The notes beneath the pieces were generated by a model. That model made no database searches. It was given only the letters and a program-made list of their open reading frames with translations, and was not told the origin of the DNA. A DNA stretch of 37,871 nucleotides from Candidatus Aquicultor sp. (GTDB lineage: Bacteria; Actinomycetota; Aquicultoria; Aquicultorales; Aquicultoraceae), in the NCBI GenBank assembly GCA_030682615.1, contig JAUXNY010000043.1, positions 1 to 37,871 of the forward strand, in the 5' to 3' direction. This document shows, one piece after another, positions 19,095 through 37,230 of this stretch. Position numbers and translations under genes: made by a program. How positions within the stretch are numbered: the stretch's first letter is position 1; each line of letters starts with the position of its first letter.

Positions 19095-19178
19095 CAACCG
19101 ATATCGAAAACCCTAGCACTCTAACACTTTAATGTGTTAAAATATCTTAATTAAACCGATATCAGTACGGGAGCTAAA

Positions 19179-20051
19179 ATGTTAAGCATCGCGCTACCAA
19201 AAGGAAGTCTCGAAGAGCAGACCCTCAAGCTCTTCGCGCAAGCGGACCTCGAGATAAAGAAGAGTGCCAGGGGCTACAATCCGACCACAAACGACCCCCG
19301 AATCAGCAAGGTCAAGGTTTTAAGGCCGCAAGAAATCCCTACATACGTCGCCGAAGGCTATTTCGACCTCGGAATCGGCGGTCACGACTGGATAGTAGAA
19401 ACGGGAGCGGATGTCATAGAGGTCGCCGATATGCCGTATGCTAAAACCGGCGCGGGCATAATGAAACTTGTCGTTGCGGTGCCTGAGGGCTCGCCGATCG
19501 AAAGGCCCGAAGACATCCCGCCGGGCAGTCGTGTCAGCACTGAACTTATGAATGTGACCCGAAAATATTTTGAGGATATAGGCGTCCCGGTCAAGTTGTC
19601 GTTTTCATACGGGGCGACGGAAGCCAAGATACCCGAGCTCGTCGATGTCGTCGTCGACCTAACCGAGACGGGCGAAACGCTTCGCCGCAATCGCTTGAAG
19701 ATCATAGGCACCGTTCTTGAATCGACCACACGGCTGATGGTCAACAAAGCGTCGTGGGCCGACCCGCAAAAGAGGCGGGCAATCGAGGAGATAAAGACGC
19801 TTCTTCTGGGCGTCATAGAAGCCCGTGGCAAGGTTCTTATCAGTATGAACGTACCCAAGGCGCAGCTCGATTCCATCGTCTCCGTGTTGCCGGCGCTCAA
19901 GAACCCGACCGTTTCCCAGCTCTACAACTCCGACTACTTTGCGGTAGAGACGGTTGTAGAAAAAGCATGCGTCAACACGCTCATTCCTGAACTCAAGGCC
20001 GCCGGGGCCGAAGATATTATCGAACTCGTAATTTCTAAAATAGTGCGCTAG
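19179..20051 (+). CDS. hisG: ATP phosphoribosyltransferase, long form (with C-terminal regulatory domain)
   Basis: LSIALPKGSLEEQTLKLF, GIGGHDWIVE, DLTETGETLRRNRL; length 290 aa fits HisG-L. Confidence 0.93.
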   Translation: MLSIALPKGSLEEQTLKLFAQADLEIKKSARGYNPTTNDPRISKVKVLRPQEIPTYVAEGYFDLGIGGHDWIVETGADVIEVADMPYAKTGAGIMKLVVAVPEGSPIERPEDIPPGSRVSTELMNVTRKYFEDIGVPVKLSFSYGATEAKIPELVDVVVDLTETGETLRRNRLKIIGTVLESTTRLMVNKASWADPQKRRAIEEIKTLLLGVIEARGKVLISMNVPKAQLDSIVSVLPALKNPTVSQLYNSDYFAVETVVEKACVNTLIPELKAAGAEDIIELVISKIVR

Positions 20052-30036: not shown

Positions 30037-30945
30037 ATGAACGAGATTACCGGTCAGACCAGAGTATTAGGGATAATTGGTTATCCTTTGACGTACACGC
30101 TCTCCCCGAAGATGCATAATGCCGCACTCAAAGACGTCGCGTTAGACTACCGCTACCTGCCCTTCGTGGTCTCACCCGAACATTTGGCGAGCGCTATCGC
30201 GGGTATTCGCGCGCTCGGCATCGCGGGCGTCAACGTTACCATGCCCCACAAAGAAACGGTCATCGAGTTTCTCGATGAAATATCACCCGAGGCTCGCATG
30301 ATCGGGGCGGTAAATACCGTACACAACGTCGATGGCCATCTTAAGGGTTATAATACCGATGGCACCGGTTTTATCAGGTCGCTCAGGGAAGAGTTGGTCA
30401 ACCCGGAGGGACGGCACGCGATAATTCTCGGGGCCGGCGGAGCCGCAAGAGCGGTCGCAGTTGCGCTGATAAACGAAGGCGTGGCGAGCATCATGCTGTT
30501 GGGGCGCACAGCGGAGAAGGTCGAGGCACTCAAAGCGCATCTATTGGGTAGCTTCGAAGGGTTTTCAATAAAAGCTCTCAGTTTTGACGATGATTTGGCC
30601 GATATCTTTGAAGTAGGAGACCTGGTAGTCAATGCAACGCCAGTCGGTATGAAAGAAAGTACAGACCTCCTACCGGTACCTTTAGAATATATAGATTCCA
30701 GGCACTTTATCTATGACCTCATCTATACACCGTCGGAAACGGCACTAATAAAAGCAGCCAAGGATAAGGGAGCTAAGGCGGTAAACGGACTAGGGATGCT
30801 ACTCTACCAGGCCGCCACGGCGTTCGAAATCTGGACTGGTACCCCCGCGCCTATAGCGATTATGCGTGACGCACTATTGATTGGATTAGAAGGCGGAGAT
30901 CGGTCGAAGCATGCTCAAAAGAAAGATAAGCGATTTTCTAGTTGA
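30037..30945 (+). CDS. aroE: Shikimate dehydrogenase
   Basis: GIIGYPLTYTLSPKMHNAAL, GVNVTMPHKE, ILGAGGAARAVAVAL, VNATPVGM. SD gggaggt before ATG 30037; track start 29974. Confidence 0.93.
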   Translation: MNEITGQTRVLGIIGYPLTYTLSPKMHNAALKDVALDYRYLPFVVSPEHLASAIAGIRALGIAGVNVTMPHKETVIEFLDEISPEARMIGAVNTVHNVDGHLKGYNTDGTGFIRSLREELVNPEGRHAIILGAGGAARAVAVALINEGVASIMLLGRTAEKVEALKAHLLGSFEGFSIKALSFDDDLADIFEVGDLVVNATPVGMKESTDLLPVPLEYIDSRHFIYDLIYTPSETALIKAAKDKGAKAVNGLGMLLYQAATAFEIWTGTPAPIAIMRDALLIGLEGGDRSKHAQKKDKRFSS

Positions 30946-32578
30946 TACCGGCATAATCACTAAAGATCAACTTAGTGAAGCCATTGAACGCTCCAGCGGC
31001 GATGACGTCGAGCGACAGCTGGTCGATTTAGGCTATATATCCGAGGCTGAAATTGCCAAGAATTTTGCCAAGCAGTTAAACCTTGGCTATGTCGACCTGG
31101 CAGGCTATGATATCAACCCGCAGGCGGCCGCCCTTATTTCAAACGAACATATTCGCCGCTATAATGTCCTTCCGATTAACCTTGAGGATGATTACCTGGT
31201 TGTGGCGATGGCCGACCCGACAAATATCTTCGCAATAGACGACCTTCATGTGATGACCGGTTTCGATATCACACCGGTTGTTACCGGCGAGACCGACCTT
31301 ATCAATGCGATAAACAAGTTCTGCACAAATGATGACGTCGTTGAAGAGGCCATTGAGAGTATAAGCGAGGATTTCGCGGATATCGCCGCGAGAAGTGGCG
31401 AGGAGCGCGATGCCGAGGAAGCACCGGTCGTAAAACTCGTCAAGCTCATAGTCACCGAAGCCGTCCGCGAACGGGCGAGCGATATCTTCATTGAGCCCCA
31501 GGAATATGATTTAAGGGTGCGCTACCGCATAGACGGTGTCCTCCATGAGATAATGCGTTCGCCAAAGCAAATCCAGGCCGGCATAATCTCGCGAATCAAA
31601 ATAATGTCCGGCATGGACATCGCCGAGCGCCGGCTTCCCCAGGATGGTCGCTTCGGTCTGGTCATCGATAAGAGGCCTATCGATTTTCGCGTGGCATCAT
31701 TGCCGACTATATATGGAGAGCAGCTTATACTGCGAGTCCTTGAGAAAGAAAGCATCTCGATGAACCTAGATGACCTGGGCTTTCTTCCTGAAGACCTCGA
31801 GCGCTTCAAGGAGTCGTTCACTAAGCCGTACGGGGCGATTCTCATAACCGGCCCGACCGGGAGCGGCAAGACGACCACTCTCTATGGTGTCCTTAATCTC
31901 ATTAACAGCGATGCGAGTAACCTCATCACCGTCGAAGACCCGGTTGAGTACCGGCTGCACGGTATCAACCAGGTGCAGGTGAACCCGAAGACCGGCTTGA
32001 CCTTCGCGAGCGCTCTCCGTTCGATTTTGCGCCAAGACCCGGATATCGTGATGATAGGAGAGATTAGGGACGAAGAGACGGCGACGATTGCGGTAGAATC
32101 GGCCCTCACAGGGCACCTGGTTCTATCGACACTACATACAAATGGTGCGCCCGCAGCGCTTACCAGGCTTGTAGAGATGGGGATAGAGCCATTTCTGGTT
32201 TCGTCCGCGGTAGACTGCATCGTCGCGCAAAGACTCGCCCGGAAGCTTTGCACGAAGTGCCGGGAGCAATTTGTCCCGACTGAGCCAGAGCTCGTAGGGG
32301 CCGGCTTTGTTATAGACGGGAATGAGCCGAAAGTCCTGTATCGCGCAAGAGGCTGCAAGTCGTGCGGCGAGACAGGCTATCACGGCCGTATCGGATTGTA
32401 TGAGGTTATGCGAATGTCGGAGACGATAGAGCGCCTGCTGGTAGGCGATGTAACTGCCGAGCAGATAGCGAAGGTTGCTGTAACGGAAGGCATGGGCACC
32501 TTACACCAGGACGGCCTAGCCAAGGTGAAATTAGGCTGGACTTCAATCGAAGAGGTCGAGCGCGTTACCATGAAATAG
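30911..32578 (+). CDS. pilB: Type IV pilus assembly ATPase, PilB/GspE family, with N-terminal MshEN-like domain
   Basis: Walker A GPTGSGKTTT, HGINQVQVNPKTGLTFASALRSILRQDPDIVMIGEIRDEET, C-terminal tetracysteine motif CTKC...CKSCGETGY. Confidence 0.93.
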   Translation: MLKRKISDFLVDTGIITKDQLSEAIERSSGDDVERQLVDLGYISEAEIAKNFAKQLNLGYVDLAGYDINPQAAALISNEHIRRYNVLPINLEDDYLVVAMADPTNIFAIDDLHVMTGFDITPVVTGETDLINAINKFCTNDDVVEEAIESISEDFADIAARSGEERDAEEAPVVKLVKLIVTEAVRERASDIFIEPQEYDLRVRYRIDGVLHEIMRSPKQIQAGIISRIKIMSGMDIAERRLPQDGRFGLVIDKRPIDFRVASLPTIYGEQLILRVLEKESISMNLDDLGFLPEDLERFKESFTKPYGAILITGPTGSGKTTTLYGVLNLINSDASNLITVEDPVEYRLHGINQVQVNPKTGLTFASALRSILRQDPDIVMIGEIRDEETATIAVESALTGHLVLSTLHTNGAPAALTRLVEMGIEPFLVSSAVDCIVAQRLARKLCTKCREQFVPTEPELVGAGFVIDGNEPKVLYRARGCKSCGETGYHGRIGLYEVMRMSETIERLLVGDVTAEQIAKVAVTEGMGTLHQDGLAKVKLGWTSIEEVERVTMK

Positions 32579-32601: not shown

Positions 32602-34134
32602 ATGTTAGCTGAACATGCTGATGAGATGTTTCCAACTGAAGACACGAACAGGGTAGACCTAGCCGATTACAAGATCAATGGAGCGGCTGTTACGGCCTTG
32701 CCCGAGATGTTCGCGCGAAGGTATAATGTCGTGCCCGTCGATATCGACGGCGACGAGCTTACCGTAGCGGTCGAAGACACGGCGAACGTCGTCATCCTCG
32801 ATGACCTGCACATGATAACAGGCTTTCAAATCAGAACGGTTGTCGCCGAGAAAAAAGATATTCTTACCCTAATCAATCGCTTATATAAAGCGAGCGAAGC
32901 GGTTCAGAACGAGGCCTCCAGCTTCCGCGCGGACGAAGTCGATGACCGCATAGGTAATATGCGGGCGGTCTCAGAAGAAGCGCCTGTAATAAAGCTCGTA
33001 AACATGATAATAAATAAAGCGGTCAATGAGCGGGCGAGTGATATACACATCGAGCCGCACGAGCGGGATTTGCGCATCCGTTACCGGGTAGATGGTGTTT
33101 TGCACGAGGTGATGCGCTCGCCAAAGCATGTCCAGGCGGGCCTCATCTCCAGAATCAAGGTCATGGCAGGGCTCAATATCGCCGAAAATCGGATACCGCA
33201 GGATGGCCATTGCGATTTGAGCGTCGGCGGTAAGGTCATCGACTTTCGTGTCGCTACGCTGCCGACGATCTATGGCGAGCGTGTCGTCCTGAGGATTCTT
33301 AGAAAAGACAGCATCCTTCTAAGCTTAGATGACCTTGGTTTCTTGCCGGAGAGCCTCAGCAAGTTCAAGGCAGCCTTCTCCAAACCATATGGAGCCATCC
33401 TTGTTACCGGGCCGACCGGAAGCGGCAAGTCTACCACGCTCTACGGGGCGCTTAACGTCATCAACGATAGCGCTAAGAACATTATCACGGTCGAGGACCC
33501 TGTCGAATATCGCCTGCCCGGCATCAACCAGATACAGGTGAGCGGCAAGACCGGTATGACATTTTCGAAAGGGCTCAGGGCCATATTGCGGGCGTCTCCG
33601 GATATCGTGATGGTAGGCGAGATCCGGGATAGAGAAACGGCACAAATCGCCATTGAGGCGGCGCTCACCGGTCACCTGGTACTATCGACCCTGCACACAA
33701 ATGACGCGCCCGGCGCCGTGAGCCGGTTGAATGAGATGGGAATCGCCCCGTTTCTCACGGCTTCGGCCATACATTGCGTGCAAGCTCAACGTTTGGCCAG
33801 GCGCTTATGTCCCGAGTGTAAAGAGGAGTACAGGGTCGCCGTCGACGTTCTCAAAAGGGTGGCGTTCCCGCTCGATAGCGACGAGTCGCCGGCGCTTTAT
33901 AGGCCGAGGGGTTGCCATAAATGCAATAACACCGGTTACAAAGGTAGAATCGGTGTGTACGAGGTCATGCTTCTTAGCGACACCTTAAAGAGACTATGCG
34001 TCGAGCGCGCAACGGCTGACGACATAAGACGCGTTGCGGTCGATGAAGGAATGAAGACCCTTCGTCAAGATGGTTTCGAAAAAGTAAAGCTTGGGACGAC
34101 GTCCCTCGAAGAGATTCTCCGCGTAATCATTTAG
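32602..34134 (+). CDS. Second, paralogous PilB/GspE family ATPase with shortened N-terminal domain
   Basis: Walker A GPTGSGKSTT, PGINQIQVSGKTGMTFSKGLRAILRASPDIVMVGEIRD, tetracysteine CPEC...CHKCNNTGY; lacks the first ~50 residues present in the upstream copy. Confidence 0.92.
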   Translation: MLAEHADEMFPTEDTNRVDLADYKINGAAVTALPEMFARRYNVVPVDIDGDELTVAVEDTANVVILDDLHMITGFQIRTVVAEKKDILTLINRLYKASEAVQNEASSFRADEVDDRIGNMRAVSEEAPVIKLVNMIINKAVNERASDIHIEPHERDLRIRYRVDGVLHEVMRSPKHVQAGLISRIKVMAGLNIAENRIPQDGHCDLSVGGKVIDFRVATLPTIYGERVVLRILRKDSILLSLDDLGFLPESLSKFKAAFSKPYGAILVTGPTGSGKSTTLYGALNVINDSAKNIITVEDPVEYRLPGINQIQVSGKTGMTFSKGLRAILRASPDIVMVGEIRDRETAQIAIEAALTGHLVLSTLHTNDAPGAVSRLNEMGIAPFLTASAIHCVQAQRLARRLCPECKEEYRVAVDVLKRVAFPLDSDESPALYRPRGCHKCNNTGYKGRIGVYEVMLLSDTLKRLCVERATADDIRRVAVDEGMKTLRQDGFEKVKLGTTSLEEILRVII

Positions 34135-35297: not shown

Positions 35298-36509
35298 ATG
35301 GCGAACACATTTGCGTATAAAGTAAGAGATAGCAAGGGGAATCTCCTGAAGGGGCAGATTGACGGCGATGGTGTGACCATGGTCGCGACTAAGCTGCGCC
35401 AGATGGGTTATGTTGTAATCGAGCTCAAAGAGAAGAGCCTCGCTCAGAAAGAGATAAACCTTCCTTTTTCAAACCGGGTGAAATCGAAAGACCTTACCAT
35501 TTTCAGCCGGCAGTTCGCCACGATGATAAACGCCGGCCTATCCCTGACCAGGTGCCTTAACATTCTAGCCGAACAGACCGAGAGCAAGGCCTTGAAGAAG
35601 GTAATCGCAAGCGTGCTGGAGGATGTCGAGCGAGGCAAGGCGCTCTCGGACGCCATGGCGAAACACACCTCGACTTTTCCACCGATATTTATCAATCTGG
35701 TTCGCGCTGGTGAAACGGGCGGCGTGCTTGATGTGGTCCTCATGCGGGTCGCGGATCATTTTGAAAAAGAGGCTTCGATAAAGTCGAAGATCAAGTCGGC
35801 GATGGCATATCCGGCTGCGATGTTTACATTTTCAATGGCGATAACGTTCGTCTTGATAACTTTCATAGTCCCGCTTTTTGTCGCGATGTTTGAGGATATG
35901 GGCGGCAACTTGCCTTTGCCGACGAAAGTTCTGCTCACACTAAGCAATTTCATTCGCTCATCCTGGTTTATAATAATCCCGGTTATAATTGCCGCTATCT
36001 ATTTATTGAGAGTCTACAGCAAGACCGAAAAGGGGAGGGAGAATATCGACAACCTAAAACTTCACCTGCCGATTGCGGGTGTTTTGGTGCGCAAGATGTC
36101 GATATCCCGCTTTACTAGAACCTTCGGCACATTGCTATCGAGCGGCGTGCCGATCCTGGTGGCACTCGATATTGTCGCTGAAAGCGCCGGCAACGCGATT
36201 GTGTCTGCCGCCGTCAAAAGGACGCGTATAAGCATCAAGGAGGGTGAGACGATAGCCAAACCGCTCGCTGAGGATAAAGTCTTTCCGCCGATGGTCGTTC
36301 AGATGATTGCGATAGGTGAGGAGACCGGCGCGCTTGACAGCATGTTGTCAAAGATAGCCGATTTCTACGACGAAGAGGTGTCCAATATGGTAGATGCGCT
36401 CACTTCGATCATCGAGCCGTTGATGATTATTGTGATGGGTCTTATCATCGGTGGCATCATTGTCGCTCTCTACATGCCGATGTTCCAAATCATAACACTC
36501 ATCAAATAA
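35298..36509 (+). CDS. pilC: Type IV pilus inner-membrane platform protein PilC (GspF family)
   Basis: FSRQFATMINAGLSLTRCLNIL, VRAGETGGVLDVVL, MIAIGEETGALDSMLSKIADFYDEEV. Confidence 0.94.
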   Translation: MANTFAYKVRDSKGNLLKGQIDGDGVTMVATKLRQMGYVVIELKEKSLAQKEINLPFSNRVKSKDLTIFSRQFATMINAGLSLTRCLNILAEQTESKALKKVIASVLEDVERGKALSDAMAKHTSTFPPIFINLVRAGETGGVLDVVLMRVADHFEKEASIKSKIKSAMAYPAAMFTFSMAITFVLITFIVPLFVAMFEDMGGNLPLPTKVLLTLSNFIRSSWFIIIPVIIAAIYLLRVYSKTEKGRENIDNLKLHLPIAGVLVRKMSISRFTRTFGTLLSSGVPILVALDIVAESAGNAIVSAAVKRTRISIKEGETIAKPLAEDKVFPPMVVQMIAIGEETGALDSMLSKIADFYDEEVSNMVDALTSIIEPLMIIVMGLIIGGIIVALYMPMFQIITLIK

Positions 36510-36558
36510 GAAATATTGCCAGAAACTGGCAGTATATTTCAAATTAAGCTAAAGTAAG

Positions 36559-36588
36559 TTGTTTTCAGACCGATAAATAACTTATAAA
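36559..36588 (+). promoter_or_regulatory. Candidate promoter for the riboswitch-pilin transcript (TTGTTT - 18 nt - TATAAA)
   Basis: TTGTTT 36559-36564 and TATAAA 36583-36588; predicted start just 5' of the riboswitch aptamer. Confidence 0.4.
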
Positions 36589-36600
36589 ACGGTCTTTTAC

Positions 36601-36673
36601 AACGATAAAGGCAAACCCGTCGTGAGGCGGGGACGCAAAGCCACGGGGCTCTTAAGAGTCGGCCGGGTTACCG
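36601..36673 (+). promoter_or_regulatory. Cyclic-di-GMP-I (GEMM-I) riboswitch aptamer
   Basis: AAAGGCAAACC-cgtc-GTGA-ggcg-GGGACGCAAAGCC-acggggctcttaagagtcggcc-GGGTTACCG: conserved GEMM-I core (GCAAACC, GNRA tetraloop hairpin, GACGCAAAGCC, GGGUUACCG) in order, upstream of a pilin gene. Confidence 0.9.
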
Positions 36674-36701
36674 TACAAATCGAACTCTAATCTTCAGGTA
36701 C

Positions 36702-36740
36702 AGGCGGTGGCGCAATTATGCACACGCCGTGCCTTTTTCT
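36702..36740 (+). terminator. Possible terminator forming the expression platform of the c-di-GMP riboswitch
   Basis: aggc-ggt-ggcg / caattatgcaca / cgcc-gt-gcct followed by TTTTTCTTT; imperfect stem with an internal loop. Confidence 0.4.
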
Positions 36741-36791
36741 TTGCTCAAAAAGATCGCCGCTTTTAAATCTCATAATAGGGAGGTGAATTGA

Positions 36792-37172
36792 ATGAATATG
36801 TTCCGCAATGAGAGGGGTTTTACCCTCATCGAGTTGATGGTCGTAATCCTTATTATCGGTATCTTAGTAGCTATCGCCGTCCCGGTGTTTAACGCCGCAA
36901 GGGAGAGCGCTTACAAATCTACTTGCCAGGCGAACTTAAGGACCATTGACGGCGCGGTCGAGACTTACAAAGCAAGTACCGGCAATGACTATCCGACCGC
37001 TGCTACTATACAAGCGACGCTAGAGCCGGCATATATGAAGAAATGGCCGGAATGCCCATCCGCAGGCGCCTATCTTATAGGTGCTGGTGGTGGCGCAGGT
37101 GCTACTGTTGCCCCTGTGGTCTCATGCCCAGGCAACGCTGGTGCTAATCCAAATGGTCATTCTTATCCGTAA
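36792..37172 (+). CDS. pilA: Type IV major pilin-like prepilin (PilA/GspG type)
   Basis: Class III prepilin signal MNMFRNERG|FTLIELMVVILIIGILVAIAVPVF with Glu5; SD gggaggtg upstream. Confidence 0.92.
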   Translation: MNMFRNERGFTLIELMVVILIIGILVAIAVPVFNAARESAYKSTCQANLRTIDGAVETYKASTGNDYPTAATIQATLEPAYMKKWPECPSAGAYLIGAGGGAGATVAPVVSCPGNAGANPNGHSYP

Positions 37173-37201: not shown

Positions 37202-37230
37202 GGGGCGGCGAAAGCCGCCCCTTATTTTTT
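37202..37230 (+). terminator. Intrinsic terminator after the pilin gene
   Basis: ggggcggc-gaaa-gccgcccc (8-bp GC stem, GAAA tetraloop) followed by ttattttttttt-type U tract. Confidence 0.92.

Follow-up and report, generated by a model that had tools for sequence, protein, structure and literature searches.

The type IV pilus locus of the uncultured Candidatus Aquicultor raises the question of how the gene for the pilin is controlled, and by which signal. In the window, i.e., the whole stretch of 37,871 nucleotides that was analysed, the genes run in the order pilB (two copies), pilT, pilC and pilA, with a riboswitch aptamer between the last two and a terminator at 37202. The last upstream pil gene, pilC (35298–36509, on the forward strand, as are all features of the pilA region given below), encodes a T2SSF platform protein (PF00482, 226 bits) with 96% identity to that of Ca. 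Aquicultor primus, and pilA (36792–37172) encodes a type IV pilin of 126 amino acids, GFTLIELMVVILIIGILVAIAVP, with an N-terminal methylation motif (PF07963). This agrees with the preliminary description of the DNA, which had placed a c-di-GMP riboswitch between pilC and pilA, had named a pilin as its target gene and had assumed a phylum other than that of Geobacter, the host being a member of the Actinomycetota. The identity of the pilC product assigns the window to Aquicultor or to a genus close to it. A ribosome-binding site, GGGAGGTG (36778–36785), is kept in relatives, and the terminator behind pilA is formed by GGGGCGGCGAAAGCCGCCCC and a T run (37202–37221). Since pilA has its own promoter (see below) and its own terminator, it is probably a separate one-gene unit, controlled apart from pilB-pilT-pilC, as had been suspected.

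We lean towards the view that pilA is under two stacked c-di-GMP controls, one exerted on initiation through RsiG and WhiG and the other on elongation through the riboswitch, with the outcome OFF at both.

The aptamer and its ligand

A cmscan of the whole window returned a single match above gathering, the c-di-GMP-I-GGC family (RF03167) at 36601–36676, with 69.9 bits (cut-off 59), an E-value of 1e-14 and all 80 model positions covered. The RF01051 covariance search that the preliminary description had suggested scored 70.5 bits at the same site (cut-off 35), and the conserved blocks it had read, i.e., the GTGA loop, GACGCAAAGCC and GGGTTACCG, were all found. The match identifies the element as a complete class-I c-di-GMP (GEMM-I) aptamer; the assignment to GEMM-I held, and was refined in that Rfam places the element in the GGC subtype (RF03167) rather than in RF01051. 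The aptamer starts 91 nt past the pilC stop, lies ~116 nt before the pilA start, and was the only copy found by the RF01051 search in the 2.14 Mb genome.

The genome encodes 14 GGDEF domains, and all 12 with a readable motif carry the canonical Asp (G-D), and none the Ser of Hypr enzymes. In the aptamer, the position that matches nucleotide 20 in the numbering of Vc2 is the G of the AGGC block. The identity of nucleotide 20 sets the preference for c-di-GMP or cGAMP, an A giving cGAMP selectivity (PMC6456294). With G at this position and canonical GGDEF domains in the genome, c-di-GMP is the expected ligand, and the set of GGDEF domains also speaks for the stacked controls. An aptamer sensing 3′,3′-cGAMP was considered as well, since the RNA shares its architecture with the GEMM-Ib riboswitches of Geobacter, which are tied to pilus genes (PMC6456294), but both the G at nucleotide 20 and the Asp of the 12 readable GGDEF domains oppose this ligand, which we regard as highly improbable.

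Two aptamers elsewhere in the class have A at the nucleotide-20 position, namely L120:1501–1581 (genome G106, AGAGC) and L129:1501–1588 (genome G297, AAAGC). In Geobacter this change confers cGAMP selectivity; the first of the two aptamers precedes a pilin gene.

The promoter upstream of the aptamer

A sigma-28/WhiG-type promoter was located by pattern match at 36550–36576, with TAAAG as the −35 element (36550–36554) and ACCGATAA as the −10 element (36569–36576). The layout, TAAAG-N14-ACCGATAA (equivalent to TAAA-N15-ACCGATAA), has one mismatch to the consensus of TAAA, ~15 nt and GCCGATAA, and from this sequence transcription is predicted to start at about 36582. The consensus belongs to the sigma factors of the flagellar clade, WhiG included (PMC8325347). 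The preliminary description had been right that a promoter stands 5′ of the aptamer, and had not seen its type, which alters the view of how pilA is regulated. A scan for sigma-70-type promoters found none, and a sigma-70 promoter for pilA was discarded.

For the class-wide comparison the pattern was defined as TAAA or TTAA, 14–18 nt, and CCGATA or TCGATA, located 14–37 nt before the aptamer. It was found 5′ of every pilin-linked aptamer of the class (16 of 16, from six families) and of 6 of the 35 other aptamers (Fisher p 1e-8, a nominal value, as the 16 pilin-linked loci are not phylogenetically independent), with a chance rate of ~0.2–2% in shuffled 129-nt upstream regions. This bias favours the stacked controls, and the non-independence of the loci counts against them. 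In 55 actinobacterial loci pilC is immediately followed by a pilin gene, and 36 of these have the same promoter before that gene, where ~0.2 would be expected; many of the 36 belong to the Coriobacteriia, a class reported to be without flagellar genes (PMC10746217).

A single pattern search of both strands of the genome gave 54 exact sigma-28 matches, versus 24 for a reversed control pattern. A second match in the window (19138–19161, TAAAATATCTTAATTAAACCGATA), 18 nt before an ATP phosphoribosyltransferase-like ORF at 19179, is likely to be due to chance. The gene for a GGDEF and HD-domain protein (contig C141 of G000, L241:310–500) has a perfect TAAAG-N14-GCCGATAA promoter 58 nt before its start, which suggests feedback on c-di-GMP.

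WhiG, FliA and RsiG

The genome has two genes for sigma factors of the flagellar clade. One, beside xerC and rpsB, is a WhiG orthologue (FliA_WhiG profile, 283 bits), with the S. venezuelae WhiG structure (6pfj) as best PDB match (E 1e-90, compared with 4e-48 for FliA), and the other is FliA, whose gene lies in the flagellar cluster behind flhA, flhF and a MinD-like (FlhG-type) gene. As FliA would read the identical consensus (PMC8325347), and both FliA and flagellar genes are present, pilA could instead belong to the flagellar regulon, with RsiG uninvolved and the riboswitch as the sole sensor of c-di-GMP. This weakens the case for the stacked controls, but the occurrence of the same promoter before pilA in Coriobacteriia supports them and argues against FliA, as do some class genomes with the promoter (e.g., G213 and G181) in which only a single sigma factor exceeds the FliA_WhiG cut-off among the matches listed. 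We infer that WhiG would be the sigma factor acting here, and consider control by FliA unlikely.

The genome also encodes RsiG, a single-motif protein of 100 residues (PF22802, 62.7 bits) that matches the Rubrobacter and Streptomyces RsiG structures in the PDB (7lq2, 7lq3 and 7lq4). A regular expression for the motif gave no RsiG match in the subset of loci searched, and the PF22802 profile then located the protein. When loaded with c-di-GMP, RsiG binds WhiG, and a control of type IV pili by this pair was proposed in Rubrobacter (PMC8325347); the presence of a WhiG orthologue together with RsiG is in line with control at initiation. On the other side, RsiG was detectable in 33 of the 36 class genomes and not in the remaining three, and the motif, EERVSFRRRVLHGKID, reads E-S-R-H-D, with H at the Q position of E(X)3S(X)2R(X)3Q(X)3D. 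The H is common to most class members read, and Q is found in Rubrobacter and Streptomyces.

Terminator and direction of the switch

The T-tailed hairpin that had been noticed 3′ of the aptamer proved to be an intrinsic terminator by folding and covariation (36696–36738, with the stem at 36696–36734 and the T run to 36738). Its folding energy is −18 kcal/mol (z = −2.8 versus shuffles), and in an alignment of 7 same-family relatives 4 pairs were changed on both sides, a covariation score that 0 of 500 shuffles reached. This covarying terminator adds to the evidence for the stacked controls.

The aptamer and the terminator are separated by a gap of 19 nt and do not overlap. The P1 3′ strand with its flank (ACCGTAC, 36670–36676), the proposed 5′ half of an antiterminator, can pair with GTACAGGC in the terminator 5′ arm (36698–36705), the proposed 3′ half. 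This pairing is kept in 91.8% of the alignment cells of the 7 relatives, and in free-fold ensembles of truncated transcripts pairing of this kind was favoured over the aptamer by 5–8 kcal/mol, in the window as well as in the other three Aquicultor species. Termination would then be favoured by any ligand that stabilises P1, i.e., the switch would be OFF, and the 19-nt gap together with the pairing matches the layout of an OFF switch. However, the antiterminator helix showed no compensatory change among the 7 relatives, its duplex energy was no stronger than that of shuffled controls (fraction 0.11–0.90, not significant), and it is weak in G049. The OFF sign is for these reasons a moderate inference from the sequence, and the weakest step in the argument for the stacked controls.

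The opposite sign was weighed against it. If c-di-GMP prevented termination, the riboswitch would be ON and, combined with RsiG, would allow pilin synthesis only at middle c-di-GMP levels, as in a band-pass filter. The class II riboswitch before C. difficile pilA1 is ON (PMC6366702), which counts against the OFF reading here, the cGAMP-sensing GEMM-I riboswitch of Geobacter pgcA is predicted to be ON (PMC6456294), and a further pairing, between GAAAAAGGC in the 5′ part of the aptamer and GCCTTTTTC in the 3′ arm of the terminator, can form in three Aquicultor relatives. The terminator, however, has no overlap with the aptamer, and the visible alternative pairing, that of the P1 3′ strand with the terminator 5′ arm, has the OFF layout; we therefore rate an ON switch as rather doubtful, if somewhat less so than control by FliA.

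In the stacked arrangement with OFF at both steps, a WhiG-type sigma factor would start transcription at the 36550–36576 promoter, and at high c-di-GMP the small anti-sigma factor RsiG would bind WhiG and shut the promoter. Transcripts that had been started would carry the GEMM-I riboswitch. In the absence of ligand, the P1 3′ strand would pair with the terminator 5′ arm, resulting in readthrough into pilA, and with c-di-GMP bound, P1 would be kept in the aptamer, the terminator would form and transcription would stop before pilA. Both layers would thus turn the pilin off at high c-di-GMP.

The tandem PilB-type ATPases (30911–32578 and 32602–34134) both have MshEN domains with degenerate c-di-GMP motifs. 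Compared with the published motif, two RLGxx(L/V/I)... Q motifs (PMC5013675), the first PilB has no RLG in either motif and no Q in the first one, and the second PilB lacks the first motif. MshEN as a third c-di-GMP layer was dropped, the domain being there but its binding motifs degenerate.

Conservation across the class

RF03167 was found in 22 of the 36 class genomes, and judging by the downstream ORFs the aptamer stands 5′ of a pilin gene in 16 genomes from six families, a class-wide linkage that supports the stacked controls. Most of the other actinobacterial copies read precede non-pilin genes, and pilin-linked aptamers also occur beyond the class, e.g., in Candidatus Geothermincola (L058) and two unclassified Actinomycetota (L065 and L067). 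Three close relatives (Ca. Aquicultor secundus, L004, as well as L005 and L006) are missing the aptamer and have kept the promoter, the ribosome-binding site and pilA. We regard it as evenly balanced whether the two controls are old in basal Actinomycetota, with repeated loss or gain of the riboswitch while the WhiG promoter and the pilin gene on either side of it stayed in place.

At L004:6209–6450 of Ca. Aquicultor secundus, the WhiG-type promoter is accompanied by a short AAAAAGG...CCTTTTTC hairpin and no aptamer; from its sequence, the hairpin may be what is left of the riboswitch. In one family (f3: L088, L126 and L120) the aptamer precedes two successive pilin-like genes and there is no clear terminator, so that control may be translational there.

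Relation to known systems

The element resembles the known RF01051/RF03167 riboswitches in its full-length match, its conserved core, a terminator as expression platform and a surface-structure target gene, and differs in its promoter, which is of the sigma-28/WhiG type, and in its place immediately 5′ of a pilin gene, in Actinomycetota. The Geobacter GEMM-Ib riboswitches, whose targets are cytochrome, pilus assembly and polysaccharide genes, have the same RNA fold and pilus-linked genes, but cGAMP as ligand, A at nucleotide 20 and a host from another phylum (PMC6456294). In C. difficile, Cdi-2-4 before pilA1 likewise combines a c-di-GMP riboswitch with a terminator in direct control of a major pilin, although there the aptamer is of class II, the switch is ON and no anti-sigma layer is described (PMC6366702). 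The RsiG-(c-di-GMP)2-WhiG system of Rubrobacter radiotolerans (PMC8325347) shares with the present one a single-motif RsiG, a WhiG orthologue, pil genes with flagellar-type promoters and a c-di-GMP enzyme gene with such a promoter, comparable to the GGDEF/HD gene on C141; here, in contrast, the pilA leader additionally carries a c-di-GMP riboswitch and the RsiG motif has H for Q. The word "riboswitch" is absent from the main text of the Rubrobacter paper (PMC8325347).

Direct riboswitch control of a pilin was thus already known from C. difficile, and WhiG–RsiG control of pili had been proposed for Rubrobacter. Every part belongs to a known family, and the novelty, judged by the open-licence literature searched, is that one pilin gene has a WhiG-type promoter and a c-di-GMP riboswitch stacked in front of it, across a class of Actinomycetota. 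No description of both devices on one promoter-leader was found in that literature, and earlier reports elsewhere are possible.

If the stacked arrangement is true, one signal would be read twice in series, leading to a sharper response or, if the signs of the two layers differ, to a band-pass. WhiG-type control of pilin genes would reach well beyond Rubrobacter, which would support the view that the control of pili is an ancient function of the WhiG sigma factor in Actinomycetota. Within one family, species that have the riboswitch can be set beside species that lack it, as a natural comparison.
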